From: an uncultured Sphingomonadaceae bacterium
Lineage (GTDB): Bacteria > Pseudomonadota > Alphaproteobacteria > Sphingomonadales > Sphingomonadaceae
DNA: 12,951 bases
Direction of reading: 5' to 3'
Assembly: GCA_946479505.1 (NCBI GenBank)
Contig: CAMLGC010000069.1
Location: 1-12,951 of the forward strand
A program made the translations under genes and the position numbers. Below, piece by piece: positions 1-12,951 of the stretch; the first letter of the stretch is position 1; every line of letters starts with the position of its first letter. The notes beneath the pieces are model-generated. The model was not told the DNA's origin, searched no databases, and saw only the letters and a program-made list of their open reading frames with translations.

Positions 1-1494
1 CGGGCGCTCGCCGGGGTCGCGTCCGCAGTCGACGCGGCGATCGCGCGCCTCTCGAACGCCGCCAATGGCGACCTCGACGCACGCGTTCCACCCGAAATCG
101 AGAAAACGCTGCCCGACCTCGCAACCGCGATGGGCGGGCTGTTCCAGCAGCTCGGCGCCAGCCTCGAAAGCGCGCAGCGGCTCGCGATGTACGATCCGGT
201 AACCGGGCTTGCCAACCGAACCTATTTCCGGCGGAGCTGCGAACGCGCGCTGGCGGAGCTCGCACCCGGCACCGTCGCCGCCTTGTTCTTCATCGATCTC
301 GACCGGTTCAAAGCGGTCAACGATACCTTGGGTCATGCGATCGGCGACGCACTGCTCGGCATGGTGGCCAATCGGCTGCGCGCGGTCTCGACATGCGCCG
401 GACGATCGGACGAAATACTGATCGGCCGGCTTGCCGGCGACGAGTTCACGATCTTCGTTCCCGACATCGGCTCGGCTGCCGATGCGGCGCGGATCGGGCG
501 TGCGGTGCTGTTCGCGCTGAGCGAGCCGTTCGAGATCGTGGGGCAAGAGATCGAGATCGGCGCGTCTGCCGGCATCGCGCTGCGCCCGCGCCACGGCAGC
601 AGCTTGACCGAGCTGATGCGCGCCGCCGACGCCGCGATGTACCACGCCAAGGCGCGCGGGCGGGGGCGCGTCGAGCAGTTCAGCGAGGCGCTTGCCGGCC
701 AGATCGCCAGCCGCGCGCAGCTCGAGCGCGATCTTCGAGCCGCCATCGACCGCGATCAATTCACGCTCGTCTATCAGCCGCAGGTGCGCCTTGCCGACAG
801 CGGTATCGTGGCGGCCGAAGCCTTGTTGCGCTGGGATCACCCAACGGCCGGTATGAAGCTGCCCGGCAGCTTCATCGAGCGCGCCGAGGAGACGGGCCTG
901 ATCGTCGAGATCGGACAGTGGGTGATCGACACCGTCGCCCAAACGATCGCGCGCTGGGGGCGAACGGGCGTCGAGCACCGATTGGCGATCAACGTCAGCC
1001 GCCGTCAGCTCGATCACGCGAGCTTCTTCCGCGGGCTGCGTGAGGCGATGCGCGCCGCGGGGGCGCCGGCCCGGCTGCTCGAACTCGAGATCACCGAGAC
1101 GCTCGCGATGCGGTGCAGCGACGATGTGATCGCGGCGATCGCGGAGCTGCGCACCGACGGCGCGGTGATCGCGATCGACGATTTCGGAACGGGCTATTCC
1201 AATCTTGCGCGGTTGAGGACGCTTCCGATCGACCGGATCAAGCTCGATCGCAGCATCGTCGAACATATCGTCGATCGCGCAGAGGCGCGTGCGGTGGCGC
1301 AGGCGGTGATCGGACTGATCCATGGGCTCGGCTGCCAGGCCGTCGCCGAAGAGGTTGAGACCGATGCGCAGGTGAACCTGCTGCGCGTGCTCGGCTGCGA
1401 CGTCGTGCAGGGCTTTGCCATCGCGCCGCCGATGCCGGAAGCCGCGTTCATCGACTGGGCGCGTGCCGAGGCTCGGCTGGTCAGCGCCGGCTGA
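1..1494 (+). CDS. HAMP-GGDEF-EAL cyclic-di-GMP turnover protein, 5'-truncated by window edge
   Basis: The reading frame is open from base 1, so the ATG at 130 is internal and the true start lies upstream. Bases 1-130 encode an end-of-HAMP-like stretch (NGDLDARVP, then a helical linker), which suggests a membrane-anchored sensor whose transmembrane part is outside the window. Counting from the Met at 130, a GGDEF domain spans about 20-183, with DLDRFK at 56-61 and the signature AGDEF at 102-106. The A for the first G is a tolerated variant. The product-inhibition RxxD is not at its usual place (S93 and I96 there). An EAL domain spans about 200-445 with EALLRW (230-235), N288, LEITE (319-323), DDFGTGYS (350-357), K371, E408/E410 and Q427. 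All the usual phosphodiesterase residues are therefore present. Phosphodiesterase activity is likely and cyclase activity is possible. The last 14 bp overlap the convergent dapE. Confidence 0.93.
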   Translation, partial: RALAGVASAVDAAIARLSNAANGDLDARVPPEIEKTLPDLATAMGGLFQQLGASLESAQRLAMYDPVTGLANRTYFRRSCERALAELAPGTVAALFFIDLDRFKAVNDTLGHAIGDALLGMVANRLRAVSTCAGRSDEILIGRLAGDEFTIFVPDIGSAADAARIGRAVLFALSEPFEIVGQEIEIGASAGIALRPRHGSSLTELMRAADAAMYHAKARGRGRVEQFSEALAGQIASRAQLERDLRAAIDRDQFTLVYQPQVRLADSGIVAAEALLRWDHPTAGMKLPGSFIERAEETGLIVEIGQWVIDTVAQTIARWGRTGVEHRLAINVSRRQLDHASFFRGLREAMRAAGAPARLLELEITETLAMRCSDDVIAAIAELRTDGAVIAIDDFGTGYSNLARLRTLPIDRIKLDRSIVEHIVDRAEARAVAQAVIGLIHGLGCQAVAEEVETDAQVNLLRVLGCDVVQGFAIAPPMPEAAFIDWARAEARLVSAG

Positions 1495-2623
1495 GAAGCC
1501 GCGTCGCGATGTCGGCGTAGATCGTCGTGAGAAGGCGCAGATCGGCGACGGCGACCGCCTCGTCGAGCTTGTGCATCGTCGCGTTGACGAGGCCGAACTC
1601 CGCGGTGCGGCAGAGCTTCGATAGAAAGCGCGCATCCGAGGTGCCGCCCGAGGTCGACAGCTCGGGACGAGCGCCGGTCGCGGCTTCGATCGCATCGCCG
1701 ATCGCGTCGGAAAGCGCGCCGGGTTCGGTCAGGAACGCCTCGCCAGAGATGAGCGGCGTCACTTTGGCGCCGGGCGCATGGGCGCAAGCGATCGCCTCGA
1801 TCCGGGCAGCAAGATCGGCGCCGCGATGGAGATCGTTGAAGCGGATGCTGAGCCGGGCCTGCGCGCGGCCGGGGATGACGTTGTGCGCGGGGTTGCCGAC
1901 CTCGATATCGGTCACTTCGATGTTCGAGGGCTGGAACCAGTCGGTGCCGGCGTCGAGCGTGATCTCCTCGATCTCGGCGAGGATCGCGATCAGCGGGGAA
2001 ATCGGATTGTCGGCGAGGTGCGGATAGGCGACGTGGCCCTGCTGGCCGGGCACATCGATCCAGATGTTGACCGAGCCGCGGCGGCCGATTTTGATCGTGT
2101 CGCCGAGACGGGCAACCGAGGTCGGCTCGCCGACGAGGCAGAAATCGGGGCGGATATTTCTCGCGTTCATCCGCTCGATCAACGCGCGGGTGCCGTGGAG
2201 CGCGGGGCCTTCCTCGTCGCCGGTGATGATGAAGCTGATCGTCCCTGCGTCGGCAGGGATGCGCGCGGCGGCCGCGGCGAAGGCGGCGATCGCGCCTTTC
2301 ATGTCGACCGCGCCGCGGCCGTAGAGTAGCCCACTGCGCTCCTCGCCCGCAAACGGATCCGCCGACCAGCCGACGCCGGGCGGAACGACGTCGAGATGTC
2401 CCGCGAAGGCGAGGTGGCCGCCGCCGTGCCCACGCGTCGCAAGCATGTTCTCGACCGGGCCATCGAGTGCCTCGCCGGACATGAAACGGTCGACCGCGAA
2501 ACCCAGCGGTACGAGCGCCGCCTCGAGCACGTCGAACACGCGTCCGCGGGCCGGCGTCACGCTGTCGCAGGCGATGAGCGCCTTGGTGAGCGCAACCGGA
2601 TCGGGCATGGCGGAGACAGACAT
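1481..2623 (-). CDS. dapE: Succinyl-diaminopimelate desuccinylase
   Basis: DapE hydrolyses N-succinyl-LL-2,6-diaminopimelate to LL-diaminopimelate and succinate in the cytoplasmic lysine/peptidoglycan precursor pathway. It is a dinuclear zinc M20-family enzyme. The 380-aa product is close to the E. coli length (375 aa). Metal and catalytic residues are in the expected order: H76 and D78 in GHLDVVPPG, D108 in GRGAVDMKG, E137-E138 in TGDEEG, E166 in VGEPTS and H351 in NATMHKLDE. The ATG at 2623 is preferred because GGAG lies 7 nt upstream. A second Met at codon 6 is possible but has no better signal. The stop lies inside the 3' end of the convergent GGDEF-EAL gene. In many alphaproteobacteria dapE sits near engB, and here a GST gene lies between them. 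An ArgE-type deacetylase is the main alternative; the FGxVNATxH motif favours DapE. Confidence 0.95.
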   Translation of the reverse strand: MSVSAMPDPVALTKALIACDSVTPARGRVFDVLEAALVPLGFAVDRFMSGEALDGPVENMLATRGHGGGHLAFAGHLDVVPPGVGWSADPFAGEERSGLLYGRGAVDMKGAIAAFAAAAARIPADAGTISFIITGDEEGPALHGTRALIERMNARNIRPDFCLVGEPTSVARLGDTIKIGRRGSVNIWIDVPGQQGHVAYPHLADNPISPLIAILAEIEEITLDAGTDWFQPSNIEVTDIEVGNPAHNVIPGRAQARLSIRFNDLHRGADLAARIEAIACAHAPGAKVTPLISGEAFLTEPGALSDAIGDAIEAATGARPELSTSGGTSDARFLSKLCRTAEFGLVNATMHKLDEAVAVADLRLLTTIYADIATRLLSRR

Positions 2624-2712
2624 CGGAAGGCTCCATTGCCCAAGCGCGCCGTGGAGACAATCCCGCAGACGTGGTCTCGGCATTCTCGTTCCTGCCGACG
2701 CAGGACAGGTCT

Positions 2713-3378
2713 CTACCCCGCGGGGGGCTGCTCGAACTGCTCGATCACCCATTCCTCCTCCTGCGCGGCGGCGATCCAGTCCTGCATGAAGGGATGTGCG
2801 AGCACCGCGTGCATGTAGGCAGGCGCGAAGCGCGGGACGGGAAGCTGGTAGGTGACGATGCGCGTCACGACGGGGGCGAACATGATGTCGGCCGCGCCGA
2901 AATCGCCGAACAGGAAATCGCCGCCCGAGCCGTAGCGGGCGCGCGCCTCGGCCCAGATCTGCATGATGCGCTGGAGATCGGCGATGACGTCGTCGTCGGG
3001 GTGCTTGCCCTCGAAGACCTGGCGGATGTTCATCGGGTGCTTGCGGCGCAGCGCGGGAAAGCTCGAGTGCATTTCGGCGGCCATCGATCGCGCCATCGCG
3101 CGGGCGCCGTCGTCGGCGGGCCAGAAAATTTCGCGGCCGGTTTTTTCGGCGAGGAACTCGATGATCGCGAGGCTGTCCCACACCACGATGTCGCCGTCCC
3201 AAAGGAGCGGCACCTTGCCCGAGGATGGGCCGAACTCGGCGCCCTCGCGGCGCTTCTCCCAATCCTCGTCGTAGAGCGGAACGACGACCTCCTCGAAGGG
3301 CAGGCCGGACTGCTTGCACGCGAGCCAGCCGCGCAGCGACCAGGAGGAATAGGCCTTGTTGCCGATGATGAGTTTCAT
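2713..3378 (-). CDS. Glutathione S-transferase family protein
   Basis: The 221-aa protein has an N-terminal thioredoxin-like GST domain (about 1-80) and an all-helical C-terminal domain. Visible GST features are a YSSWS motif at 10-14, whose serines are candidates for the glutathione-activating residue, the cis-proline at V56-P57 in GKVPLL, and D68-S69, the acidic-Ser pair that binds the gamma-glutamyl group. N-terminal sequences of the type IGNKAYSSWSLR are typical of a common proteobacterial GST subgroup of unknown substrate, so no specific reaction is assigned. The ATG at 3378 is the natural start, since the thioredoxin fold begins at residue 2. No clear Shine-Dalgarno precedes it, so translation may be weak or leaderless. 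It lies 89 bp upstream of dapE on the same strand, which allows but does not prove co-transcription. Confidence 0.9.
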   Translation of the reverse strand: MKLIIGNKAYSSWSLRGWLACKQSGLPFEEVVVPLYDEDWEKRREGAEFGPSSGKVPLLWDGDIVVWDSLAIIEFLAEKTGREIFWPADDGARAMARSMAAEMHSSFPALRRKHPMNIRQVFEGKHPDDDVIADLQRIMQIWAEARARYGSGGDFLFGDFGAADIMFAPVVTRIVTYQLPVPRFAPAYMHAVLAHPFMQDWIAAAQEEEWVIEQFEQPPAG

Positions 3379-3413
3379 GGGGGCGGGTTAGTGATGTGAT
3401 GCGGGCCTGTAAA

Positions 3414-3438
3414 TTCCCCTCCCGTTTACGAAAACGGG
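3414..3438. repeat. Degenerate palindromic repeat with short hairpin
   Basis: The left part (CCCCTCCCG) is the same as the left arm of the palindrome at 3778-3799, followed by GTTTAC-like loop sequence. A 7-bp perfect stem can form between 3421-3427 (CCCGTTT) and 3432-3438 (AAACGGG) with a 4-nt loop. It looks like a decayed copy of the same GC-rich family. There is no T-run, so a terminator role is not supported. Confidence 0.5.
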
Positions 3439-3695
3439 GCGGCGCGGCGCGCTGCCGGCACAGGCGCGACGCCGAACCCGCGCGGAAATTGACTAACTTG
3501 ACCGTCCGGCGGGGTGCTGCGTCCACGAAAATGGCGGATATTCGCCGCTGCCGGTCGAGGCTTTAGGCGCTTGAGTAAACTTTGCGGCCTGGAGTCACCA
3601 TGGCGCAGGCTTGGATCGACGGTGTCAAAGAGCGCGTGCACCATGACACAAAAACGGGGTTGTAGGACAGCACGGACGACGAGCGATTTCGACCC

Positions 3696-3737
3696 ACGAA
3701 GGCGCGAAGGAGAGTTTTACACGCGGAGGCGCGGAGA
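3696..3737. repeat. Imperfect direct repeat of a purine-rich unit
   Basis: Two related units, ACGAAGGCGCGAAGGAG (3696-3712) and ACGCGGAGGCGCGGAGA (3721-3737), stand about 25 bp apart and are joined by an AT-richer AGTTTTAC spacer. Each unit itself repeats a GAAGG/GGAGG core. From general familiarity, similar AC-GCGGAG-GCGCGGAG strings recur in intergenic DNA of many proteobacteria. Their function is unknown. Confidence 0.45.
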
Positions 3738-3777
3738 ACGCCGAGGGCGTGTCGAGAAGGAACAGGCCCTCCCCCGG

Positions 3778-3799
3778 CCCCTCCCGCAAACGGGAGGGG
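3778..3799. repeat. Perfect GC-rich palindrome just downstream of engB
   Basis: The 9-nt arm CCCCTCCCG (3778-3786) and its exact reverse complement (3791-3799) flank the 4-nt loop CAAA. It starts 4 bp after the engB stop on the minus strand. A hairpin here could stabilise the 3' end of the operon mRNA or help termination, but no uridine tract follows on the minus strand. The preceding GGCCCTCCCCCGG on the plus strand looks like part of a second arm, so this may be one unit of a dispersed repeat family. Confidence 0.65.
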
Positions 3800-3803
3800 A
3801 GAC

Positions 3804-4574
3804 TCAGCCGATCGCGTCGAGCACTGCGGCGCGCAGCTCCGGAATGCCGAGCCCGGTTTCGCTCGATGTCGCGATGATGTCGGGGTGCGCGGCGGGGCGC
3901 TTGCGCACCTCCTCGGCGGTCGCCTCTGCCACCTTGTCGAGCTCGGTTGGCTTGATCTTGTCGGCCTTGGTGAGGACGAGACGGTAGCTGACGGCGGCCT
4001 CGTCGAGCATCTTCATCACGTCGCGGTCGACGTCCTTGAGGCCGTGGCGCGAATCGATGAGGACGAGCGTGCGCTTGAGCACCGCGCGGCCGCGCAGGAA
4101 ATCGTTGATCAGGAAACGCCACTTCTTGACGATATCCTTGGGCGCCTTGGCGAAGCCGTAGCCGGGCATGTCGACCAGCCGGAAGGCGAGGGGCGTGCCG
4201 ACGTCGAAGAAGTTCAATTCCTGCGTGCGTCCCGGCGTCACCGAGGTGCGCGCGAGCGCCTTGCGGCCCGTGAGCGCATTGAGGAGCGACGACTTGCCGA
4301 CATTGGAGCGGCCGGCGAAGGCGACCTCGGGGGCGTCCGCATCGGGAAGGAACTGGAGCGCGGGCGCGGATTTGAGGAAGGCGATCGGCCCGGCAAAGGT
4401 CTTGCGGGCCTGTTCGAGGGCATCGTCGGAAAATTCCTCCCCGGTACGGGGAGGGGGACCAGCCGAAGGCTGGTGAAGGGGCCCCGCTGCAACCGAATCG
4501 TTCGTGGCGGGGCCCCCTCCACCAAGACGCTTCGCGCCTTGGTCCCCCTCCCCGTTCCGGGGAGGAGTGCTCAT
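3804..4574 (-). CDS. engB: Ribosome biogenesis GTPase YsxC/EngB with repeat-derived N-terminal insertion
   Basis: EngB is an essential TRAFAC-class GTPase acting in late assembly of the large ribosomal subunit. All G motifs are present in the 256-aa product: G1 GRSNVGKSS (88-96), G2 TPGRTQ (113-118), G3 DMPGYG (135-140), G4 TKAD (202-205) and G5 around SSETG (237-241). The ATG at 4574 overlaps the yidC stop as ATGA. No other ATG, GTG or TTG in this frame lies between it and the conserved SDDALEQARKTFAG segment, so the start is firm. Residues 3-47, rich in Gly, Pro and Ser, come from a 132-bp palindromic element (4435-4566). Removing it would leave ATG-AGC-ACA-TTT-TCC-GAC and a 212-aa protein, close to the family norm of about 210. 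The insertion keeps the frame and the GTPase core looks intact, so the protein is probably functional. It is the last gene of the rpmH operon. Confidence 0.95.
   Translation of the reverse strand: MSTPPRNGEGDQGAKRLGGGGPATNDSVAAGPLHQPSAGPPPRTGEEFSDDALEQARKTFAGPIAFLKSAPALQFLPDADAPEVAFAGRSNVGKSSLLNALTGRKALARTSVTPGRTQELNFFDVGTPLAFRLVDMPGYGFAKAPKDIVKKWRFLINDFLRGRAVLKRTLVLIDSRHGLKDVDRDVMKMLDEAAVSYRLVLTKADKIKPTELDKVAEATAEEVRKRPAAHPDIIATSSETGLGIPELRAAVLDAIG
4435..4566. repeat. 132-bp palindromic repeat element inserted in frame in engB
   Basis: Terminal inverted repeats of 27 bp (4435-4461 and 4540-4566) match at 26 positions. Each end is itself a hairpin: CCTCCCCG and CGGGGAGG around a 3-nt loop. 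Inside are a 7-bp hairpin (ACCAGCC/GGCTGGT, 4458-4474), a central 10-bp pair (GGGGCCCCGC at 4478-4487 and GCGGGGCCCC at 4507-4516) and a small accaag/cttggt stem (4520-4542). The length is 44 codons exactly. The coding (minus) strand has no TAA, TAG or TGA in any frame. No clear target-site duplication is visible at the edges. It encodes no transposase, so it would depend on a factor elsewhere, in the manner of REP/MITE-type elements. Confidence 0.85.
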
Positions 4575-6274
4575 TTCACCACCGCTTGTTTGAGAGCGGG
4601 ATGCTTCGAATAGAGCCATTGCTGCTGCGCGATGGTGAGCAGGTTGGAGGTGATCCAGTACACCTGGAGCCCCACCGCAAAGGGCGCCATCACGAACATC
4701 AGCACCCAGGGGAGCAGCGCGAAGACCTGCTTCTGCGCGGCATCCATCGGCGCCGGGTTGAGCCTGAACTGGAAGAACATCGAGATGCCGAGCAGGATCG
4801 GCACCACCCCGATCGCGATGACGTGCGGCGGGGTGAAATCGAGCAGGCCGAACAGGTTGAGCGGCGTCAGCGGATCCGGCGCCGACAAATCCTTGATCCA
4901 CAGCACGAACGGCTGGTGGCGCATCTCGATCGTCAGCATCAGCACCTTGTAGAGCGCGTACATGATCGGCACCTGGAGCAAGGTCGGCAGGCAGCCCGCG
5001 ACCGGATTGACCTTCTCGGTCTTATAGAGCTGCATGATCTCCTGCTGCTGGCGCGGCTTGTCGTCCTTATGCCGCTCCTGGATCGCCTTCATCTTGGGCT
5101 GGAGCGCGCGCATCGACGCCATCGAGGCGAACTGTTTCTGCGCGATCGGGAACAGAAGCCCGCGGATCGTGATCGTGAGCAGGATGATCGCCAGGCCGAA
5201 ATTGCCCACCATCCGGAACAGCCAGTCGAGATAGTAGAAGATCGGCTTTTCGACGATGCGGAACCAGCCCCAATCGATCGCGTAATCGAGCATCGTGACG
5301 CCGCCCTGATCGGTGTAGCGGTCGAGCAGGCGGACCTCCTTGGCGCCCGCGAAGAAGCGCGAGGTCTGGGTGATCGCCTGGCCGGGGGCGAGCGTCTTGG
5401 GCTGGAGCGTCGCGTCGGCCTGATAGGCCTGGTTGGCGCCCGCGCGGAACTGGCCCGCGAACGACTGGTCCTGATCGGGGATCAGCGCGGTGAGCCAGTA
5501 TTTGTCCGAAAAGCCGAGCCAGCCGCCGGTCGAATCAAAGCGCTTGGCGCCCTCGTCGATGTCGTCGAAATTGACGTCGTAATCGGCGCTGCCGTCATGC
5601 ACCGACATCGGACCGGTATGGATCGTCCAACTATCGGGATCGGTCGAGACGCCCTTCCTGTTGACGAGCGCGTAGGTCGCGACGGGCACCGCGGCCGCGC
5701 CGCCATTGGCGACGCTCTGCTGAATCGTGAACATGAAATCGTCGTCGACCGAGATCTTGATCTGGAAGCGCTGGCCCTGGGTGTTGGTGGCGCTCAGCGT
5801 CACCGGCGTGGTCGGCGTCAGCTTGTCGCCGCTCGCCTGCCAGAGCGTGTCCGGCCCCGGCGGGTTGAGCCCCTGCGCCTGCCAGCCGAAGCTCGCGAAA
5901 TACGCGTGCGCGCTGCCCGACGGCGAGAGGAGGCGGATCGGCGCTGAATCCTTGGCGACGGTCTCGTTGTAGTTCTTGAGGACGAGATCATCGATCCGCG
6001 GGCCCTTCAAATTGATCGAGCCCGAGAGCGCGGGCGTTTCGATCGGAATGCGCGGCGTTTCGGCGAGCACCGCCGTGCGGTCGCGCACCGCGGCGGGCGC
6101 ATCGGCGGCGGGATCGGCAGACGGCTGCGGGATCGCCTTGGTCTCGCCCCCCTCGATTCTGGTCGCGGGCGGGTTCGCGGTCGGCACGACATAGTTCTGG
6201 ACCAGCGGCCAGCTCAAGAAAACGAGCACCGCGATGATCGCGAAGACGATGAGATTGCGATTGTCTTGGCTCAC
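4571..6274 (-). CDS. yidC: Membrane protein insertase YidC
   Basis: YidC inserts and folds inner-membrane proteins, alone or with SecYEG. The 567-aa product has the Gram-negative layout. An N-terminal transmembrane helix (about 8-28) is followed by a Pro/Ala-rich linker (31-62) and a large periplasmic beta domain (about 70-335). The conserved five-helix insertase core (about 345-555) comes last. The core arginine expected in the hydrophilic groove is R371 in TITIRGLLFP. The KVNPVAGCLPTLLQVPIMYALY signature is at 421-442 and the charged cytoplasmic helical hairpin is around 384-418. The C-terminus (KHPALKQAVVK) is basic, as expected for ribosome contact. The start is GTG at 6274, chosen because GAGGA lies 9 nt upstream and the transmembrane helix follows directly. 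The gene starts 21 bp after yidD and its stop overlaps the engB start. Confidence 0.97.
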   Translation of the reverse strand: MSQDNRNLIVFAIIAVLVFLSWPLVQNYVVPTANPPATRIEGGETKAIPQPSADPAADAPAAVRDRTAVLAETPRIPIETPALSGSINLKGPRIDDLVLKNYNETVAKDSAPIRLLSPSGSAHAYFASFGWQAQGLNPPGPDTLWQASGDKLTPTTPVTLSATNTQGQRFQIKISVDDDFMFTIQQSVANGGAAAVPVATYALVNRKGVSTDPDSWTIHTGPMSVHDGSADYDVNFDDIDEGAKRFDSTGGWLGFSDKYWLTALIPDQDQSFAGQFRAGANQAYQADATLQPKTLAPGQAITQTSRFFAGAKEVRLLDRYTDQGGVTMLDYAIDWGWFRIVEKPIFYYLDWLFRMVGNFGLAIILLTITIRGLLFPIAQKQFASMASMRALQPKMKAIQERHKDDKPRQQQEIMQLYKTEKVNPVAGCLPTLLQVPIMYALYKVLMLTIEMRHQPFVLWIKDLSAPDPLTPLNLFGLLDFTPPHVIAIGVVPILLGISMFFQFRLNPAPMDAAQKQVFALLPWVLMFVMAPFAVGLQVYWITSNLLTIAQQQWLYSKHPALKQAVVK

Positions 6275-6295
6275 CAGGCGTGATCCTCGTTCGTG

Positions 6296-6508
6296 TCAGG
6301 GCACCGGATCAGGCCCGAACCCACCCCAGGGATGGCAGCGCGCGATGCGTCTCGCGGCAAGCCAGCCCCCCTTGAGCGCCCCATAGCGGCGGAGCGCCTC
6401 GATTGCATAGGCCGAACAGCTCGGCTGGTATCGGCACGACGGCGGCAACACGGCCGACGGCCCGACCTGCCAGGCGCGACAGAAGAGAATGAGGAGCCGC
6501 GCGATCAC
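6296..6508 (-). CDS. yidD: Membrane protein insertion efficiency factor YidD
   Basis: This is a 70-aa member of the YidD family, a small inner-membrane-associated protein that assists YidC-dependent insertion. The family core is plain: [12 protein letters not shown] (24-35) with C25 and C31, then [20 protein letters not shown] (44-63) with C58, and the GPDPVP end. The N-terminal helix ([15 protein letters not shown]) is amphipathic and hydrophobic. The start is GTG at 6508, which shares the four bases GTGA with the rnpA stop, so translational coupling to rnpA is likely. It sits in its canonical place between rnpA and yidC. Confidence 0.95.
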
Positions 6509-6969
6509 CGCGCCACCTTCGCCAGCGCCTTGACGAGTTCGGCCCGGAGCTGCGCGAAATCGCGCTCCACGCCGCCCATGCGGCCGATCAGGATGTGATC
6601 GGCGCCTGCGATACCGTGTTCCGGCAGCACCTCGCGTGCGAGCGCCCGAAAGCGGCGCTTCATGCGGTTGCGGATGACAGCGTTGCCGATCTTCTTGGTG
6701 ACGGTGATGCCGATCCGCATCGCGGGATCGCCGTCTTCACGCGGGCGGGCGAGCAGCACGAACCCCGGCATCGGCGCACGCCTGCCTGCATTCGCCGCGA
6801 GGAAATCGCGGCGAATGCGGATCGTGCTTAGGCCGACAGCTTCTTGCGGCCGCGGGCGCGGCGCGCGCGGATCACGCTGCGGCCGCCCGGCGTCGCCATC
6901 CGCGCGCGGAAGCCGTGCCGGCGAGCACGCACCAGATTGCTCGGCTGAAAGGTCCGCTTCATCGATCAT
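6505..6969 (-). CDS. rnpA: Ribonuclease P protein component; start unusual, overlaps rpmH
   Basis: RnpA binds the RNase P RNA and helps tRNA 5'-end maturation. The conserved part runs from [16 protein letters not shown] through [22 protein letters not shown] and the signature RNRMKRRFR (100-108) to the end. Counted from CTA-AGC-ACG this core is about 108 aa, a normal size. The frame contains no ATG, GTG, TTG or CTG between the ATG at 6969 and an ATG 20 codons into the conserved core. The choice is therefore the ATG at 6969 (154 aa, with a 46-residue Ala/Pro/Arg-rich extension and rpmH nested inside out of frame) or a non-standard start such as the ATC or ATT codons near 6822-6815. AGGGA abuts the 6969 ATG, poor spacing for it but good for rpmH. 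The end is certain; the start is not. The stop overlaps the yidD GTG. Confidence 0.8.
6828..6962 (-). CDS. rpmH: 50S ribosomal protein L34
   Basis: The 44-aa basic protein begins [20 protein letters not shown] and ends RKKLSA. It carries the L34 signature (KRTFQPSNL, RxHGFRxRMxTxxGRxV). Its length is exactly that of typical alphaproteobacterial L34. The ATG at 6962 has AGGGA 7 nt upstream. It is the first gene of the operon and lies wholly inside the longest reasonable rnpA frame (offset by one). The TAA at 6830-6828 falls two bases before the first plausible codons of the conserved RnpA core. Confidence 0.96.
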
Positions 6970-6987
6970 TCCCTGGAAGTCTGAATT

Positions 6988-7012
6988 GAAAAGGGCCGCC
7001 CCTGGGACGGCC
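6988..7012 (-). terminator. Leader hairpin with short T-tract upstream of rpmH (possible attenuator)
   Basis: On the minus strand, 7012-6994 forms an 8-bp GC-rich stem (GGCCGTCC with GGGCGGCC, one G-U) with a 3-nt loop, followed by CTTTTC. It lies between the predicted promoter and the rpmH ribosome binding site, so it is within the 5' leader. The stem and short T-run resemble an intrinsic terminator or attenuator. The run of only four T's makes efficient termination uncertain. It could alternatively be the terminator of the upstream small membrane protein gene. Confidence 0.5.
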
Positions 7013-7024
7013 TGACGGTCTGCG

Positions 7025-7053
7025 CCCATAGGGAAAGGCGCCCCGTGAGTCAA
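7025..7053 (-). promoter_or_regulatory. Sigma70-type promoter for the rpmH-rnpA-yidD-yidC-engB operon
   Basis: On the minus strand, TTGACT (7053-7048) and TATGGG (7030-7025) are separated by exactly 17 bp. The -35 matches consensus at five of six positions and the -10 at three of six, including the TAT start. Initiation would fall near 7018, giving a leader of about 55 nt that contains the hairpin at 7012-6994. The -35 overlaps the TGA stop of the upstream gene. Confidence 0.65.
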
Positions 7054-7421
7054 CGCGAACGCTCGCGTTTGTTGCGCTCGCCGAACCATCGTTTGAGCCG
7101 TTCCCCGACGCTCGGCGTCGGCTCGCGCAAGCCGCGTTCGATGTCGCGGGCTCGGCGGCGACGGAAGCTGCGGCGCCGAAGCCCGAAATCGGCCATCTCG
7201 CCCAATTTGGGCCAGCGCCGCTTTAGCCGCGCGAACCGCCGGCGCACCCATAAGGAGTTTCGCAGCAAGAGCGCGAGCCCCCCTGCAAACACGAAGATGC
7301 CGCCGGGACCCGGCAGGGCACCCACCACGGGCGCCGAGAGGACGAGCAGCACGCCGACGACCAGCAGCGCAATGCGTACGGCGGGATGCGAGCGGCGGCG
7401 GGTCGGGCGATCGGGCGTCAC
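7050..7421 (-). CDS. Small PGPGW-like transmembrane protein of unknown function
   Basis: The 123-aa protein has two hydrophobic segments, about 14-36 and 39-55, separated by the turn ALPGPGG. This resembles the PGPGW family of putative transmembrane proteins, with G in place of the final W. The rest is strikingly basic (RRFARLKRRW, RRRSFRRRRARD, KRWFGERNKRERSR), which predicts a cytoplasmic, possibly RNA- or lipid-binding tail. The family has no established role. The GTG at 7421 is used because no ATG precedes the first hydrophobic segment in frame, and TGAGGAAAT lies directly upstream with a short spacer. It is divergent from comM/yifB (138 bp apart). Its stop lies within the rpmH promoter, so it might be partly co-transcribed with rpmH. 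Confidence 0.75.
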   Translation of the reverse strand: MTPDRPTRRRSHPAVRIALLVVGVLLVLSAPVVGALPGPGGIFVFAGGLALLLRNSLWVRRRFARLKRRWPKLGEMADFGLRRRSFRRRRARDIERGLREPTPSVGERLKRWFGERNKRERSR

Positions 7422-7559
7422 ATTTCCTCATCTGGGGCGGGTGTGTTGCATGCGCAAGCCGCGGACGATCCGGCACGAAGCGAGGCAGCCGCGCCTTGCC
7501 GCGGTTCCCTCGCGACGAAAAGCGGCTATGAGACAAGGCGTTGGCTTTTGGGGGGAAGC

Positions 7560-9068
7560 ATGGCGGCGATCGTATCGACAGTGGCGTATCTCGGGCTGGA
7601 GGCGCGCGCGGTCGAGGTGCAGGTGCAGCTCATTCCGGGGCTGCCGGCGTTTCACGTCGTCGGGCTCGGCGACAAGGCGGTGGCCGAAAGCCGCGAACGG
7701 GTGCGCGGCGCGGTGGCGGCGCTGGGGCTCGCGCTTCCGCCCAAGCGGATCGTGGTCAATCTGTCACCGGCGGACCTGCCCAAGGAAGGATCGCATTTCG
7801 ACCTCCCGATCGCGCTTGCGCTGCTCGGCGCGATGGGGGTCGCCGATGTCGAGACGCTCGCCGATTACGTCGTCGTCGGCGAGCTCGGGCTCGACGGGCG
7901 GATCGCGCCGTCGCCCGGCGTGCTGCTTGCGGCGTTGCATGCGTCGGCGGAAGGGAAGGGGCTGGTCTGCCCCGCGGCGCAGGGCGCGGAAGCCGCGTGG
8001 GCGGGGTCGATCGAGGTGATCGCCGCACCCGATCTGCTCGGGCTGCTCAACCATTTCAAGGGACACGGGCTGCTATCGCCGCCACAGCCGGGCGAGGCCG
8101 AAGCGCCGGGTATCGGGCCCGATCTCAAGCAGGTGAAGGGCCAGGAAACCGCCAAGCGCGCGCTCGAGATCGCCGCGGCCGGCGGGCACAATCTGCTGAT
8201 GATAGGGCCGCCCGGCGCGGGCAAATCGTTGATGGCGAGCTGCCTTCCCGGAATCCTGCCGCCGCTCGATGCCGCGGAGGCGCTCGAGGCCTCGATGGTG
8301 CAGTCGGTGGCGGGGACGCTTTCGGGCGGACGGCTGACGCGGACGCGGCCCTATCGGAGCCCGCATCACTCGGCCTCGATGGCCGCGCTCGTCGGTGGCG
8401 GGCTCAAGGTAAAGCCGGGCGAGGTGAGCCTGGCGCATCTGGGCGTGCTGTTCCTCGACGAGCTGCCCGAATTCCAGCGCAGCGTGCTCGATTCGCTGCG
8501 CCAGCCGCTCGAGACGGGGATGGTGAGTGTCGCGCGGGCGAACGCGCACGTCACCTTTCCGGCGCGGGTGCAGCTCGTCGCGGCGATGAATCCGTGCCGG
8601 TGTGGGCATCTGGGCGACGCCTCGCTGGCGTGCTCGCGCGCGCCGCGCTGCGCGGCCGACTATCAGGCGAAGGTATCGGGACCGCTGCTCGACCGGATCG
8701 ACCTGCATGTCGAGGTGCAGGCGGTGACCGCGGCCGATCTCGTCCTGCCGCCGCCCGCCGAAGGATCGGCCGAGGTGGGCGCACGCGTCGCCGAGGCGCG
8801 GTCTGTCCAGGCGGAGCGCTATGCTGATGCCGATGTGCGCACCAATGCCGAAATCGACGGCGACCTTCTGGAAGCGGTCGCGACGCCCGACGAGGCGGGC
8901 CGCAAGCTGCTGGCGCAGGCGGCTGAGGCGATGCGGCTCTCCGCGCGCGGCTATACGCGCGTGCTGCGGGTGGCACGGACGATCGCGGATTTGGCCGGCG
9001 CTGGTGAGATCGGGCGCCTCCACGTCGCCGAGGCGCTGAGCTACAGGCGGCAGGCGCCGCGCAGCTAA
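7560..9068 (+). CDS. comM: YifB/ComM family Mg-chelatase-like AAA+ ATPase
   Basis: The 502-aa product has the family layout. An N-terminal Lon-protease-like ChlI domain (about 20-145, with GLPAFHVVGLGDKAVAESRERV and GSHFDLPIALA) precedes an AAA+ module. That module has Walker A GPPGAGKS (216-223), Walker B VLFLDE (296-301) and sensor-like AAMNP (341-345). A four-Cys cluster C346-x-C348-x9-C358-x5-C364 suits a zinc site. The conserved SGPLLDRIDLHVEV (373-386) and C-terminal RGYTRVLRVARTIADL close the protein. Work on ComM in naturally competent bacteria shows a hexameric branch-migration helicase aiding integration of transformed DNA. Non-competent bacteria also keep it. The ATG at 7560 follows GGGGGAAG and starts at the family's conserved N-terminus. 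The stop is 25 bp before the FNT gene, suggesting one transcript. Confidence 0.95.
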   Translation: MAAIVSTVAYLGLEARAVEVQVQLIPGLPAFHVVGLGDKAVAESRERVRGAVAALGLALPPKRIVVNLSPADLPKEGSHFDLPIALALLGAMGVADVETLADYVVVGELGLDGRIAPSPGVLLAALHASAEGKGLVCPAAQGAEAAWAGSIEVIAAPDLLGLLNHFKGHGLLSPPQPGEAEAPGIGPDLKQVKGQETAKRALEIAAAGGHNLLMIGPPGAGKSLMASCLPGILPPLDAAEALEASMVQSVAGTLSGGRLTRTRPYRSPHHSASMAALVGGGLKVKPGEVSLAHLGVLFLDELPEFQRSVLDSLRQPLETGMVSVARANAHVTFPARVQLVAAMNPCRCGHLGDASLACSRAPRCAADYQAKVSGPLLDRIDLHVEVQAVTAADLVLPPPAEGSAEVGARVAEARSVQAERYADADVRTNAEIDGDLLEAVATPDEAGRKLLAQAAEAMRLSARGYTRVLRVARTIADLAGAGEIGRLHVAEALSYRRQAPRS

Positions 9069-9093
9069 TCGGCCCAGCGGACGTTGGACGAGG

Positions 9094-9963
9094 ATGGACG
9101 AGGATGGCGCCCAGGACGACTCGCTGAGCCGCAAGCCCCAGGAGGGCGAGCACGAAGGCAAGGTCGAGCTTACCGGCAACGAGAAACACCAGGTCGAGAA
9201 GCGCGAATCGCCCGGTGCGCGCGTCGTCCACGAGGTCATCCGCCGACAGGGTGACGAGGAGCTCAAGCGCCCCGCGCTGTCGCTGATGTGGTCGGGATTT
9301 GCAGCCGGGGTTGCGATCAGCGCGTCCGTTCTGGGGCAGGCGCTGCTGCTCGAGCATTTGCCCGACGCGCCGTGGCGGCCGCTGGTGGCGAGCTTCGGCT
9401 ATACGCTCGGCTTCCTGATCGTGATCCTGAGCCGGCTCCAGCTTTTCACCGAAAGCACGCTTTCGGCGGTGATCCCGGTCGCGACGGAGTTGACGCCGAT
9501 CAACGTCGCGCGGATCGCGCGGCTCTGGGGGATCGTGTTCGCGGCGAATCTCGCCGGAACCTTATTCATCGCCTGGCTCACGATCGAGGGATGGATCGGC
9601 ATTCCCGATCAGCTCGGTGCGCAGCTCGCGGTCGCCCGTCATGCGCTCGACCATCCGCCGGTGGAGGTGCTGAGCGCAGGCGTGCCGGCGGGGTTCCTGA
9701 TGGCGGCGGTGGCCTGGGCGCTGCCGAGCGCACGCGGGCAGGAATTCTTCGTCGTGCTCACCTTCACCTATTTCATCGCGCTCGGCGGGTTCGCGCATGT
9801 CGTCGCCGGATCGAGCGAGGCGTGGCTGCTGCTCATTGCCGGCGAGATCGGCATCGATCGGGCGATGGTCGGCTTCATCTTCCCCGCGCTGGTGGGAAAC
9901 GTGATTGGCGGCACCGGGCTGTTTGCGCTTCTCGCGCACGCGCAGGTCCGCCACGAGCTGTAG
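9094..9963 (+). CDS. Formate/nitrite transporter (FNT) family membrane protein, YfdC-like
   Basis: The 289-aa protein begins with a charged, Glu/Lys/Asp-rich cytoplasmic segment of about 60 residues, then six hydrophobic segments: about 63-86, 98-115, 141-163, 192-210, 217-240 and 256-281. ELKRPALSLMWSGFAAGVAISASVLGQA (56-83) and FIALGGFAHVVAGS (227-240) are typical of the FNT fold. H235 matches the central pore histidine of FocA-type channels. The long acidic N-terminus and sequence style are closest to the YfdC branch, whose substrate is not established, so formate or nitrite transport is not claimed. The ATG at 9094 is the start because GGA lies 5 nt upstream. The nearby ATG at 9104 is out of frame. 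It is probably co-transcribed with comM. Confidence 0.88.
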   Translation: MDEDGAQDDSLSRKPQEGEHEGKVELTGNEKHQVEKRESPGARVVHEVIRRQGDEELKRPALSLMWSGFAAGVAISASVLGQALLLEHLPDAPWRPLVASFGYTLGFLIVILSRLQLFTESTLSAVIPVATELTPINVARIARLWGIVFAANLAGTLFIAWLTIEGWIGIPDQLGAQLAVARHALDHPPVEVLSAGVPAGFLMAAVAWALPSARGQEFFVVLTFTYFIALGGFAHVVAGSSEAWLLLIAGEIGIDRAMVGFIFPALVGNVIGGTGLFALLAHAQVRHEL

Positions 9964-9995
9964 TCGACGCGTCGCGCGGTTCGCTGTTTTTCCGG

Positions 9996-10025
9996 CTGGA
10001 AGAACCGGCTGTGCCCACCTATAGC
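9996..10025 (+). promoter_or_regulatory. Weak candidate promoter for tRNA-Leu
   Basis: CTGGAA (9996-10001) and TATAGC (10020-10025) are 18 bp apart, about 45 bp before the tRNA. The -35 match is poor. Between it and the tRNA is a 6-bp inverted repeat CCCGGC/GCCGGG (10043-10061). This is only a plausible site. Confidence 0.25.
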
Positions 10026-10071
10026 CGCTTGCGACGGTCGATCCCGGCGGCTTTGGCCGGGCGGGCGACAC

Positions 10072-10158
10072 GCGGGTGTGGCGGAATTGGTAGACGCGCC
10101 GGACTCAAAATCCGGTTCTGGAGACAGAGTGTCGGTTCGAGCCCGACCACCCGTACCA
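10072..10158 (+). tRNA. tRNA-Leu (anticodon CAA)
   Basis: The 87-nt class II tRNA has acceptor arms GCGGGTG and CACCCGT (first pair G-U). Its D-arm carries the Leu-typical TGGCGGAATTGGTAGACGC. The anticodon stem is CCGGA/TCCGG around the loop CTCAAAA, giving anticodon CAA, which reads UUG. It has a long variable arm (CTG/CAG stem), a T-arm GTCGG-TTCGAGC-CCGAC, discriminator A and an encoded CCA. The open frame starting inside it (10078) is a known kind of false gene. Confidence 0.97.
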
Positions 10159-10195
10159 TCTTTGTCGCGATCCGGGCGTTGCCGCGCGGGCTCGC

Positions 10196-10906
10196 TCAGG
10201 CGGTGTGCTTGTCGCAGGTGGCGCGCTCGGACGCGGGAGCGAAATTGTAGAGCTGGGTGAAGTCGCGGTCGTCGCGAACGACGAACGAGGCGATGTAGTG
10301 AATCCGCGGCTCGCCGAGCAGCCAGCGCCCCATCAGCGGGCGATATTGATAGTTGATCTCGACGAACATCACCCCCGAATCCTCGGGCGCATTCACCTGG
10401 GCGCCCGCCTCGCCCATCCCCTGTGGTACGGGCGTGCCGATGGTGTCGGAGGTGTTGTCGGTGCCGTCCTCGGGATCGGTCGTCCCGTAGCTCGAATCCC
10501 ATCCTGCGCCGCTCATCTTGCCGATGCAGCGCTGCCAGTGAATGCGCTGGACACCGTCCTCGTTCTCGAGGCTGGACAGCGTGATGCGGCCATTCTCGAG
10601 CAGGTGGAGCCCCTTGCCCTGGAGCCGGACCGCCTGGAGGACGTCGTTGATGTCGACCTCGCGGAGCTGCTGGATCGAATCGCTGCCGCCCACGATCCCC
10701 ACACGCGAGGCGTTGTCGGCGAGCGCCATCGCGATCTGGCTGACCTTGAGATTGGCGAGCGCGAGATTGGCGACCTCGATACCATAGGCGCCGATGCCGA
10801 GCACGAGCGGGAGCCCATAGGCGAACTCGATCAGCGCGACGCCGCTGCAAGCATCGCGGAACCGACGCGCAAGGCGGGGAAGACGGGGGAGGGGGCGTGT
10901 CATCAT
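10196..10906 (-). CDS. TadE-type pseudopilin / pilus assembly protein
   Basis: The 236-aa protein has a short basic N-terminus (about 1-19), then SGVALIEFAYGLPLVLGIGAYGIEVANLALANLK. G22 followed by VALIE places a glutamate at +5 of a potential prepilin peptidase cut, as in TadE/TadF pseudopilins, ahead of a hydrophobic helix (about 23-45). The rest should be periplasmic and includes a Thr/Asp-rich loop (residues 144-156) and two cysteines (C126, C232). Its ATG at 10906 shares one base with the stop of the preceding gene (TAATG), so translation is likely coupled. It is the last of the three tad genes seen here and ends 37 bp from the convergent tRNA-Leu. Its place suggests a minor pilin or assembly factor of a Tad (Flp) pilus; the exact subtype (TadE or TadF) is not settled. 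Confidence 0.82.
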   Translation of the reverse strand: MMTRPLPRLPRLARRFRDACSGVALIEFAYGLPLVLGIGAYGIEVANLALANLKVSQIAMALADNASRVGIVGGSDSIQQLREVDINDVLQAVRLQGKGLHLLENGRITLSSLENEDGVQRIHWQRCIGKMSGAGWDSSYGTTDPEDGTDNTSDTIGTPVPQGMGEAGAQVNAPEDSGVMFVEINYQYRPLMGRWLLGEPRIHYIASFVVRDDRDFTQLYNFAPASERATCDKHTA

Positions 10907-11493
10907 TATCCGCAGGGATTCTCGATTTCGGTGGTCGATTGCTGCTGATAGGGCTGGTTCTTGAGCAGCGTTTGTGCCGTCAAGGTGACATCAGCGGACC
11001 GGCCGAGCAGCGACATCACCGGGAACACGCGCGCATAGGTCACCGAAAAGGTGTAGAGCGTCACGTCGTCGGCGCCGCCCTGGCTTCGAACACCGGGATC
11101 CGCGTCCCACACTCCGTTGCCGTTGATGTCGTCAAAGCACTCGCCGGAATCGTACCGGTTGTTGCCGTTCGCGTCGGTGAAAACCTCGGGCTTGATCGAA
11201 GAGAAGGTCTGATAGCTGCGACGCACGGAATCATAGTCGGTGATATTGACCAGCGCGCGCATCTGATCGAGCACGGCGGCATCGATCGTGCCGGTGCTGT
11301 CGGCGCCGCCTTCGATGGCCGAATCGCGCCCGGCCTTCTGCACCGCGCCCTCGAGGATCGCCTGGGCGTAGATTTGGTACATCAGGTCGCACAGCCCCAT
11401 CAGCAGCATCATCAGCACCGGCAGAATGATGACGAATTCGATGATCGTCGCGCCGCGACGATCGCCGCGGAGGGAGGCGAGCATGCGGATCAT
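10906..11493 (-). CDS. TadE-family pseudopilin with EF-hand-like Asp/Asn loops
   Basis: The 195-aa protein starts with a basic leader MIRMLASLRGDRRG and a G14-ATIIE(19)F motif, giving the Glu +5 expected of Tad pseudopilins, followed by a hydrophobic helix (about 15-36). The periplasmic part contains two loops resembling calcium-binding repeats: DANGNNRYDSGE (107-118) and DINGNGVWDADPG (122-134). The segment VTYARVFPVMSLLG before a C-terminal Gln/Thr tail is typical of TadE-like proteins. Its ATG at 11493 overlaps the TadG stop (ATGA) and its TAA overlaps the next start (TAATG), so all three tad genes form one tight unit. A start at the second Met (codon 4) is possible but would break the overlap. 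Confidence 0.88.
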   Translation of the reverse strand: MIRMLASLRGDRRGATIIEFVIILPVLMMLLMGLCDLMYQIYAQAILEGAVQKAGRDSAIEGGADSTGTIDAAVLDQMRALVNITDYDSVRRSYQTFSSIKPEVFTDANGNNRYDSGECFDDINGNGVWDADPGVRSQGGADDVTLYTFSVTYARVFPVMSLLGRSADVTLTAQTLLKNQPYQQQSTTEIENPCG

Positions 11494-12951
11494 TCGGAAA
11501 TCCGAAGCATCGCCACACGCTCGGCGATTTTCTTGAATGCGTCCGACAGTTCGGTCTTGCTCGACGCCGTGAAGGCGTAGTTGCCCTGCGACGCGCACTG
11601 CTTGAGCTCGGGGGTGAGCGCGGTGCCGAGCGCGATGACATAGACCTCGATGCCGAGCTTGTTCTTGGCGACCGAGCATTCGGTGAGGAAGCGCGCGGTA
11701 TGGTTGGCATAGTCGTTCGACAGCGTCGAGCCGGTGACGCGGCGGTCGAACTCCTCGATGCCGTACAGGCCGTAAATCCTCGAATTCGGCGCCATCGCGC
11801 CGTCGGTCATGAAGACGATCACCTGGTGCGGGAGCTTGCGCCCGGGGGGCGCGGCGTTGTTCGTGGCGAAGATGCCGTTGCGTGACAGCATCCGCACGCC
11901 CCAGATCATCCCGACATCGTGATAGGTTCCGCCGAGCGCCCGGAAATCGTTGTCGTGGACGTAGTTGTACACGTCCTGCGCGGTCATTTCGGTCGGCAGC
12001 CTCGCGGGCATGCCACACGGCGCATAGCCGTATTTCTGCAAATAGCTTTCCGAGTAGCCCGGATATTGGCCATTGGAAAAGGCGATGTCCTGGCTGCTCG
12101 AAGAGTTGCGGTACCACACGACATCGGGCCACATCGGCTTCCAGCGCTCGGCGGCATTGCCGGGCACGAGATCGGGGTCGAGGTCCGGCGGCAGATTGTC
12201 GATGCTGAACGTGGTATTGGCGTTCGTCTTCGCCTCTTCGATGCAGCCCTGCCATTTGGATTTGCTGCCATCGGTGCGCGTCGGATCGGTCACCGTCTGC
12301 CCGGCGACGTAGTTGCTCACGTCCTGCGGCCACTTTTCGTAACGCCAATAGGGCGACGTGACGGATACCTTGTCGGCCACGCAATGGTTTGCGCTGTTGT
12401 AATATTGCCAGGAGGTATTGCCGATGTCGGTGTACGATCCGTTCGAATTGTAATCGCGCGTCTGCGCGCGCGAAAGGCACGTGTTTCGGCTGTCGGCGGA
12501 GATCTCGATATTCTGCCGCACCCAATCGGTAATCATCACCTTGTGACGGCTCTGGTAGTCGTAGCTGCCCGAGATCATGTATTCCTGCGGGATCAGCTTG
12601 CCGACATTGACGGACGAGGAATACGTCACGAATCCATAGCGGAAGCGCGTATTGGCATCGATGTTTCCGCGGATCGTGGTGTCGAAATCGACCACCGCGT
12701 CGCGCAGCGCGGAGAGCTTCGAGCCCGATTTCTCGATATCGTAATATCCCGTCGTGTTATCATCACGAACATAGGTATCGGGCGTGCCGCCGCAGGTCGT
12801 CGGGTCGTCGGGCTTGCACGCCATCGAGCCGGTCGTGTCGAGCACGAACATCACATCGGTATCGGCAAGGTCGTAGCGCGCCTCGCAGGTGACGGTGAGC
12901 GTGGAATCCGCCGCCTTGAACATCTTCATGATGGTCATCGGCACGGTTGCC
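11490..12951 (-). CDS. TadG-like pilus assembly protein with VWA domain, 5'-truncated by window edge
   Basis: The frame continues through the right edge of the window, so the GTG at 12944 is internal and the N-terminal TadE-like anchor is missing. Counting from that GTG, the VWA fold starts at DVMFVLDTTGSM (30-41), which supplies the DxTxS metal-site motif. It resumes with GGTYHDVGMIWG (338-349, T340 being the MIDAS threonine) and VIVFMTDGAM (375-384). Between them lies a long insertion (about 110-330) rich in Tyr, Asn, Ser and Asp, usual for this group in sphingomonads. At least eight cysteines suggest periplasmic disulfides. The C-terminal FKKIAERVAMLRISE matches TadG ends. TadG is thought to link the Tad secretion complex to the outer cell envelope. 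AT-leaning Asn/Tyr/Ser codons make it less GC-rich than its neighbours. Confidence 0.88.
   Translation of the reverse strand, partial: ATVPMTIMKMFKAADSTLTVTCEARYDLADTDVMFVLDTTGSMACKPDDPTTCGGTPDTYVRDDNTTGYYDIEKSGSKLSALRDAVVDFDTTIRGNIDANTRFRYGFVTYSSSVNVGKLIPQEYMISGSYDYQSRHKVMITDWVRQNIEISADSRNTCLSRAQTRDYNSNGSYTDIGNTSWQYYNSANHCVADKVSVTSPYWRYEKWPQDVSNYVAGQTVTDPTRTDGSKSKWQGCIEEAKTNANTTFSIDNLPPDLDPDLVPGNAAERWKPMWPDVVWYRNSSSSQDIAFSNGQYPGYSESYLQKYGYAPCGMPARLPTEMTAQDVYNYVHDNDFRALGGTYHDVGMIWGVRMLSRNGIFATNNAAPPGRKLPHQVIVFMTDGAMAPNSRIYGLYGIEEFDRRVTGSTLSNDYANHTARFLTECSVAKNKLGIEVYVIALGTALTPELKQCASQGNYAFTASSKTELSDAFKKIAERVAMLRISE

Follow-up and report, generated by a model that had tools for sequence, protein, structure and literature searches.

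An in-frame palindromic unit in engB of a sphingomonad and its probable relation to palindrome-bounded nuclease cassettes

The engB locus and its palindromic unit

The DNA analysed here (the window) is a 12,951-nucleotide stretch from an uncultured Sphingomonadaceae bacterium (GCA_946479505.1, contig CAMLGC010000069.1, positions 1 to 12,951). Within it, yidC and engB adjoin one another on the reverse strand, and engB carries a palindromic unit close to its start (Table 1). Direct comparison of the two arms (4435-4461 versus 4540-4566) bore out the 27-nt terminal inverted repeats of the original prediction, including their single mismatch. A search with the terminal-hairpin pattern returned 4 matches in the window, representing two places counted on both strands, where 0.01 was expected. 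A frame script reproduced the predicted length of exactly 44 codons and the absence of stops from all three frames of the coding strand; the other strand contains one stop in one frame. The unit had been placed after the second engB codon. Its position near the engB start holds, but the exact point does not, since the unit begins within codon 3 (AC|T). Excision by script restored ATG AGC ACA TTT and a 212-aa protein, as claimed. In-frame insertion of the unit in engB is well supported.

Table 1. Coordinates of the genes and of the parts of the palindromic unit within the window
Feature	Position	Strand	Description
engB (YihA/YsxC GTPase)	3804..4574	(-)	256 aa, 44 of these residues from the 132-bp unit
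yidC	4571..6274	(-)	longest ORF, start putative; Pfam YidC_periplas and 60KD_IMP; stop overlaps engB start (ATGA)
Palindromic unit in engB, in frame	4435..4566	(-)	132 bp; encodes PPRNGEGDQGAKRLGGGGPATNDSVAAGPLHQPSAGPPPRTGE
Upstream terminal arm	4540..4566	(-)	itself a hairpin, CCTCCCC-loop-GGGGAGG, then GGGACCA
Downstream terminal arm	4435..4461	(-)	inverted copy of the upstream arm, 26/27 matching
Interior with inner hairpins	4462..4539 (approximate limits)	(-)	delimited from the fold; a DUF559 gene forms the middle of longer relatives

The overlap of yidC with engB was likewise read as predicted. Apart from the ATG at 4574, no in-frame ATG, GTG, TTG, CTG, ATT or ATC precedes the conserved EngB core, whose Pfam GTPase domain spans residues 83-203. 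By this reading-frame logic, the 44 unit-encoded residues are probably translated as part of EngB. The structural model of the protein suggests that these extra residues (about 44) are disordered, and this is offered as a suggestion because the model is weak (mean pLDDT 63.7). The transcript stretch has a predicted folding energy of -115.9 kcal/mol (z = -9.3), a value as low as which was reached in 0 of 200 shuffles, and the predicted fold of the unit consists of a long terminal stem and three inner hairpins. A hairpin of such stability directly past the start codon could impede engB translation, which counts against the explanation we favour below. An Rfam search on the unit returned matches that were all far under the gathering scores, and its surroundings yielded neither a terminator-like nor a promoter-like site.

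The dispersed family and its in-frame copies

Alignment of EngB and of the yidC-engB junction had been proposed as a means of finding empty sites, and such sites were found. The insert is absent from the EngB proteins P0002-P0004, which are 87-90% identical to window EngB (alignment A2) and are the closest short ones among the best 120 of 8000, and Hephaestia caeni (L001) has 32 nt from the yidC stop to the EngB core with no insert. Two findings that would have spoken against insertion were thereby looked for. Close relatives do not share the same N-terminal residues on non-palindromic DNA, as they are without the insert, and the unit is not confined to this genome: sharp-ended, dispersed matches at E 1e-3 occur in 28 of 30 genomes (11/12 plus 17/18). 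Genomes with matches hold 3 to 82 of them with both strands counted, values that are lower bounds given that in several genomes the best 40 candidates were scored. No clean empty/filled pair from the same species was found.

The ends of 40 distinct full-length copies are uniform, with 39 starting TCCTCCCC and 36 finishing GGGGAGGA; sharp, repeated boundaries with terminal inverted repeats are a mark of MITEs. The copies show a flank preference for A-R-W upstream and W-Y-T downstream. No target-site duplication was seen in these 40 copies, direct repeats in the flanks amounting to four at 2 nt, none at 3, one at 4 and none at 5-9 nt. In 22 copies identified through DNA matching, 110 out of 132 frames lack stops, compared with a mean of 76.5 and a maximum of 96 in 200 shuffles. 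The length is divisible by three in only 7 of these 22, and therefore the frame-keeping of in-gene copies probably reflects selection rather than a special element length.

Most family copies seen are intergenic. On an annotated 200-kb Sphingomonas parapaucimobilis plasmid, whose gene table is incomplete, 12 of 14 family places fall between genes and the other two belong to a nuclease cassette as its ends. A simple coding score applied to 23 copies from L051-L074 gave an intragenic-looking context for one, L069. Family matches are present in 17 of 72,556 PLSDB plasmid records, 16 of them sphingomonad.

The expectation that GC-rich palindromes of sphingomonads can insert in frame in genes was nevertheless upheld by family members in three further host genes, which together with L069 were chosen from 43 long-match loci, 20 of these preselected by a translated-insert match. 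In a biotin carboxylase gene (AccC, L209) the insert lies in an open frame and splits the Biotin_carb_C match into two stretches, the second directly after the insert. In an E2 acyltransferase gene (L213) it separates, again in an open frame, the lipoyl domain from the E3-binding domain, so that in both AccC and E2 Pfam domains flank the insert on either side. The open-frame insert of MurD (L223) has its Pfam domains after it, the MurD-like_N match beginning at profile position 52, and relatives align on both sides. The ImuB-like gene at L069 probably also carries a family member in an open frame. When the element peptide was searched against longer database proteins, 14 matches were obtained (4 AccC, 6 E2, 3 ValS and 1 ThiC by precomputed domains), of which only 2 were below E 1e-3, one being the query's own protein. 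In the 12 of these 14 that were inspected the peptide was visible in frame, including AccC from named Sphingomonas, E2 from S. hankookensis and ValS from Novosphingobium sp. CECT 9465. By reading, the ValS protein P0126 seems to contain two inserts of palindrome type, of which the first falls within the catalytic domain and the second close to the anticodon domain.

Corresponding sites were compared at 25 AccC, 25 MurD and 24 E2 loci, source genomes included, with 41 genomes searched for each gene and one MurD locus unreadable. The frame is kept in all 73 readable insert-site middles. Depending on the genome, these sites hold differing palindromic peptides or nothing, and several palindrome families share identical in-gene sites. 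At one AccC locus (L269), the in-frame site holds a solo 21-bp terminal hairpin, and the nearest "empty" MurD site (L281) is perhaps a decayed solo hairpin; both look as if two palindromic ends had recombined.

Nuclease cassettes, recurrent sites and competing explanations

A search of proteins of 141-448 aa with the element peptide gave 37 matches, 36 with a DUF559 domain and one other. Neither EngB nor any other host protein was among these 37, which counts against our favoured explanation. In 35 aligned DUF559 proteins, PPRNGEG from the element peptide stands at the start of 34 and a GPPP-type element peptide at the end of all 35; the proteins were retrieved through that peptide, and their shared termini are thus no frequency estimate. 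Because the element peptide is present at both ends, the ORF runs through both palindromes. At L060 and at S. parapaucimobilis L360 (NZ_CP155755), the latter between two transhydrogenase genes, a DUF559 gene lies between element ends, and positions 1-53 of the engB unit match one end of the L060 cassette at 91%. MITEs, too, have longer relatives that share their ends and carry an enzyme gene. The original prediction that the family seeds protein sequence without a transposase of its own consequently holds for the 132-bp unit but not for the longer elements, which carry a nuclease gene.

To evaluate this arrangement more widely, flanking inverted repeats were scored at the best 30 of 142 DUF559 matches (L225-L254) and the best 30 of 99 GIY-YIG matches (L330-L359, of which L349 looks UvrC-like). 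The repeats exceeded those of all 120 control segments at 25 DUF559 and 22 GIY-YIG loci, and scores of at least 40 were reached at 24 and 19 loci, respectively, versus 0 of the 120 controls. The 5 DUF559 and 8 GIY-YIG loci that did not rise above the controls count against our explanation. CGTCAT-type palindromes were observed on either side of GIY-YIG genes. Most of the 30 DUF559 loci bear other palindrome subfamilies, with the ends of the engB-unit family recognised in L252, so each subfamily may depend on its own enzyme, again a point against the explanation we favour. Cassettes of several subfamilies were observed at the same gene junctions in different genomes; the genes that follow them at the 30 loci are presumably dnaG-like (5), lpd-like (3), hisZ-like (3), folC-like (2) and trpA-like (2), and several GIY-YIG loci with strong flanking repeats adjoin what we take to be a trmJ-like gene. 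When 65 stretches of at least 60 nt (one from the window and 64, in part empty sites, from the AccC, MurD and E2 hotspots) were compared with cassette ends, 28 matched DUF559 cassettes, 10 matched GIY-YIG cassettes and 27 matched neither.

In the DUF559 model (mean pLDDT 82.5) the core is predicted with confidence, and confidence is low at the termini, which are the translated palindromes. Its best Foldseek matches in the PDB are 3hrl, the I-Bth0305I homing endonuclease domain (E 1e-4) and, more weakly, Vsr (E 0.018). A Caulobacter DUF559 protein, VsrA, has been described as Vsr-like (PMC12907096).

We consider it probable that the engB unit derives from a palindromic nuclease cassette, is non-autonomous and probably translated, and is moved in a homing-like manner by DUF559. 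The full elements, of about 450 bp, would consist of the same two terminal palindromes enclosing a small gene for a DUF559 endonuclease (Vsr-like, PD-(D/E)XK), and the 132-bp unit would be a MITE-like, non-autonomous member of this sphingomonad family. The nuclease would cut its target and repair would copy the element into the break, so that no target duplication would arise. Copies would land chiefly between genes, with tight operon junctions as frequent sites. Because the element is stop-poor in every frame, a frame-preserving copy could also survive within a gene at an insertion-tolerant place. In the window, the unit would have landed directly past the engB start, and EngB would for that reason carry about 44 extra residues. 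A broader proposal, which we put forward tentatively and with somewhat less than even confidence, is that of "homing palindromes": a small nuclease, DUF559/Vsr-like or, in sister families, of the GIY-YIG type, lies between terminal palindromes with its ORF often in frame through them, the whole spreads by cutting and repair, and short, nearly stop-free derivatives recurrently insert at the same tolerant places in essential genes, where they turn into protein sequence.

The palindromes might instead be moved by another enzyme, be it a transposase of the RAYT/Y1 type or some unknown recombinase, with the DUF559 and GIY-YIG genes as passengers between them. This agrees with the purely structural nature of the nuclease link and with GTAG-class REPs being tied to RAYTs (PMC3733652). 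It also agrees with genome G009, which has DUF559 and no element match and counts against DUF559 as the mover. However, Y1_Tnp was found in 2 of the 30 genomes versus 29 for DUF559, a comparison that, among transposases and recombinases, covers Y1 alone. We hold the passenger account to be unlikely. A RAYT as mover was disfavoured in particular, the element being present in 28 of the same 30 genomes. As an anecdotal observation, the sole genome of the 30 without DUF559, G410, is also without element matches.

A palindrome-like N-terminal extension is present in 5 of the best 120 EngB matches from 8000 scored (P0001, P0005, P0023, P0026 and P0097). A contig scan for engB gave 50 loci, most with an EngB core, in a score order that is not the order of nearest relatives. 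The junction itself was studied in 170 distinct yidC-engB junctions, mostly from sphingomonads, drawn from top-scoring matches rather than at random and with two loci without a readable yidC excluded. Short junctions are typical, 134 of the 170 being no longer than 65 nt. Among the 169 shorter than 500 nt, 35 are longer than 65 nt. Exact inverted repeats of at least 9 nt occur in 18 of those 35, and 15 of the 18 have their first in-frame start at least 42 nt beyond the yidC stop. The palindromes are of several types, and the yidC-engB junction is a hotspot for them. A different palindrome is read in frame at L102, and by eye L168 and L121 hold decayed kin of the engB-unit family seemingly read in frame, both of which failed the 9-nt repeat test. 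L121 belongs to G410, where engB retains an in-frame stretch like an element end. At L133 in G211, a gene reading as a GIY-YIG nuclease (its place in G211 is a PF01541 match) lies between yidC and engB, flanked by CGTCATGCTGAACTTG.. palindromes; here a different palindrome family is represented at the junction by a longer relative.

A single ancient insertion into engB, inherited with many losses, would agree with P0005 and P0097 being sisters on the EngB tree, the latter decayed, and with only 2 changes, as a minimum, being forced by the well-supported branches of the EngB-core tree. On the same tree, however, the six carriers (the five and the window) need 5 changes where label shuffles average 5.9 and 51 of 500 need equally few, so the carriers are hardly clustered, and in other species this junction holds unrelated palindromes. 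Recurrent insertion is likely, on a tree that is weak and poorly resolved, and we judge the single event to be quite unlikely. The reading in which the unit serves chiefly as a hairpin between yidC and engB that is regulatory or stabilises the mRNA, with the 44 residues as a by-product, is compatible with a cut-and-repair origin and is favoured by the very stable fold, the repeats and late starts of the long junctions and the intergenic places on the plasmid, but it is very unlikely in view of the missing terminator-like site, the lack of an alternative engB start, the prevalence of short junctions and the family members inside AccC and MurD.

Comparison with known systems

To our knowledge, the route by which palindromic repeats enter reading frames, and the identity of their mover, have been open since their description in Rickettsia. 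With the ends defined, a class of candidate enzymes named and both filled and empty relatives at hand, the question of the mover becomes testable in sphingomonads. In-gene palindromes are themselves already known from the Rickettsia palindromic elements (RPEs) and from REPs of another family in several species, two sphingomonads among them (PMC3733652). As far as our literature search shows, this family and the genes that host it in frame are new, as are the shared hotspots and the palindrome-bounded nuclease cassettes; no report of nuclease-palindrome cassettes was found in titles and abstract beginnings on DUF559, Sphingomonas REPs or MITEs, nucleases with REPs and Rickettsia palindromes, a search lying mostly outside subscription papers. 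The match of 38 of the 65 stretches to nuclease-cassette ends points to a route by which selfish DNA may add segments to essential proteins, and the in-gene survival of a hairpin DNA parasite suggests how such elements give working proteins new pieces.

Many RPEs are found in frame within genes whose products are likely functional proteins (PMC3733652). The sphingomonad family resembles them in that stop-free palindromic units lie in frame in protein genes (engB, AccC, MurD and E2). It differs in its host, in its GC-rich sequence, in the three inner hairpins of the engB unit and in having longer forms that share its ends and carry a nuclease gene. We know of no such longer form of RPEs.

E. 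litoralis and S. alaskensis, the species considered next, we take to be an Erythrobacter and a Sphingopyxis. CGTC REPs (Di Nocera 2013) have in-gene copies in these two, including tRNA synthetase and truB genes, and the CGTC-tagged alphaproteobacterial REPs apparently lack a dedicated transposase (PMC3733652 for both). They share with the present family the form of short dispersed palindromes, some of them in genes. The engB unit, compared by eye with the published description, does not fit their combination of a terminal CGTC (TGTC/CCTC) tag, an 8-9 bp stem with leading A-T pairs and a CCA tail; it differs in terminal motif and in stem, the latter being CCTCCCC/GGGGAGG without leading A-T pairs. 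The CGTCAT-type palindromes around GIY-YIG genes may bear on the missing transposase of the CGTC REPs, and the "homing palindromes" proposal, if true, would supply an enzyme for in-gene palindromes where none was known for those REPs.

The REP/BIME-RAYT systems (GTAG REPs) are similar in their paired inverted hairpins with a small nuclease-type enzyme encoded between them, but the enzyme here is DUF559 (PD-(D/E)XK) and a RAYT is an HUH tyrosine enzyme; the genomic Y1 (HUH) transposase characteristic of RAYT-mobilised REPs was found in just the 2 of 30 genomes mentioned above. As in MITEs, the units are about 130 bp long, bear terminal inverted repeats, contain no complete gene and have longer relatives with the same ends. 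Unlike MITEs, they show no target duplication, their partner is a nuclease and no known transposase, and nearly all of their frames are open. Finally, free-standing homing endonucleases (I-Bth0305I, Vsr-like) share with the cassettes the nuclease fold, which the DUF559 model displays, and the repeated occupation of the same conserved sites. In contrast to these endonucleases, no intron or intein was seen in association with the DUF559 genes, which form a palindrome-bounded cassette with short, nuclease-free derivatives.
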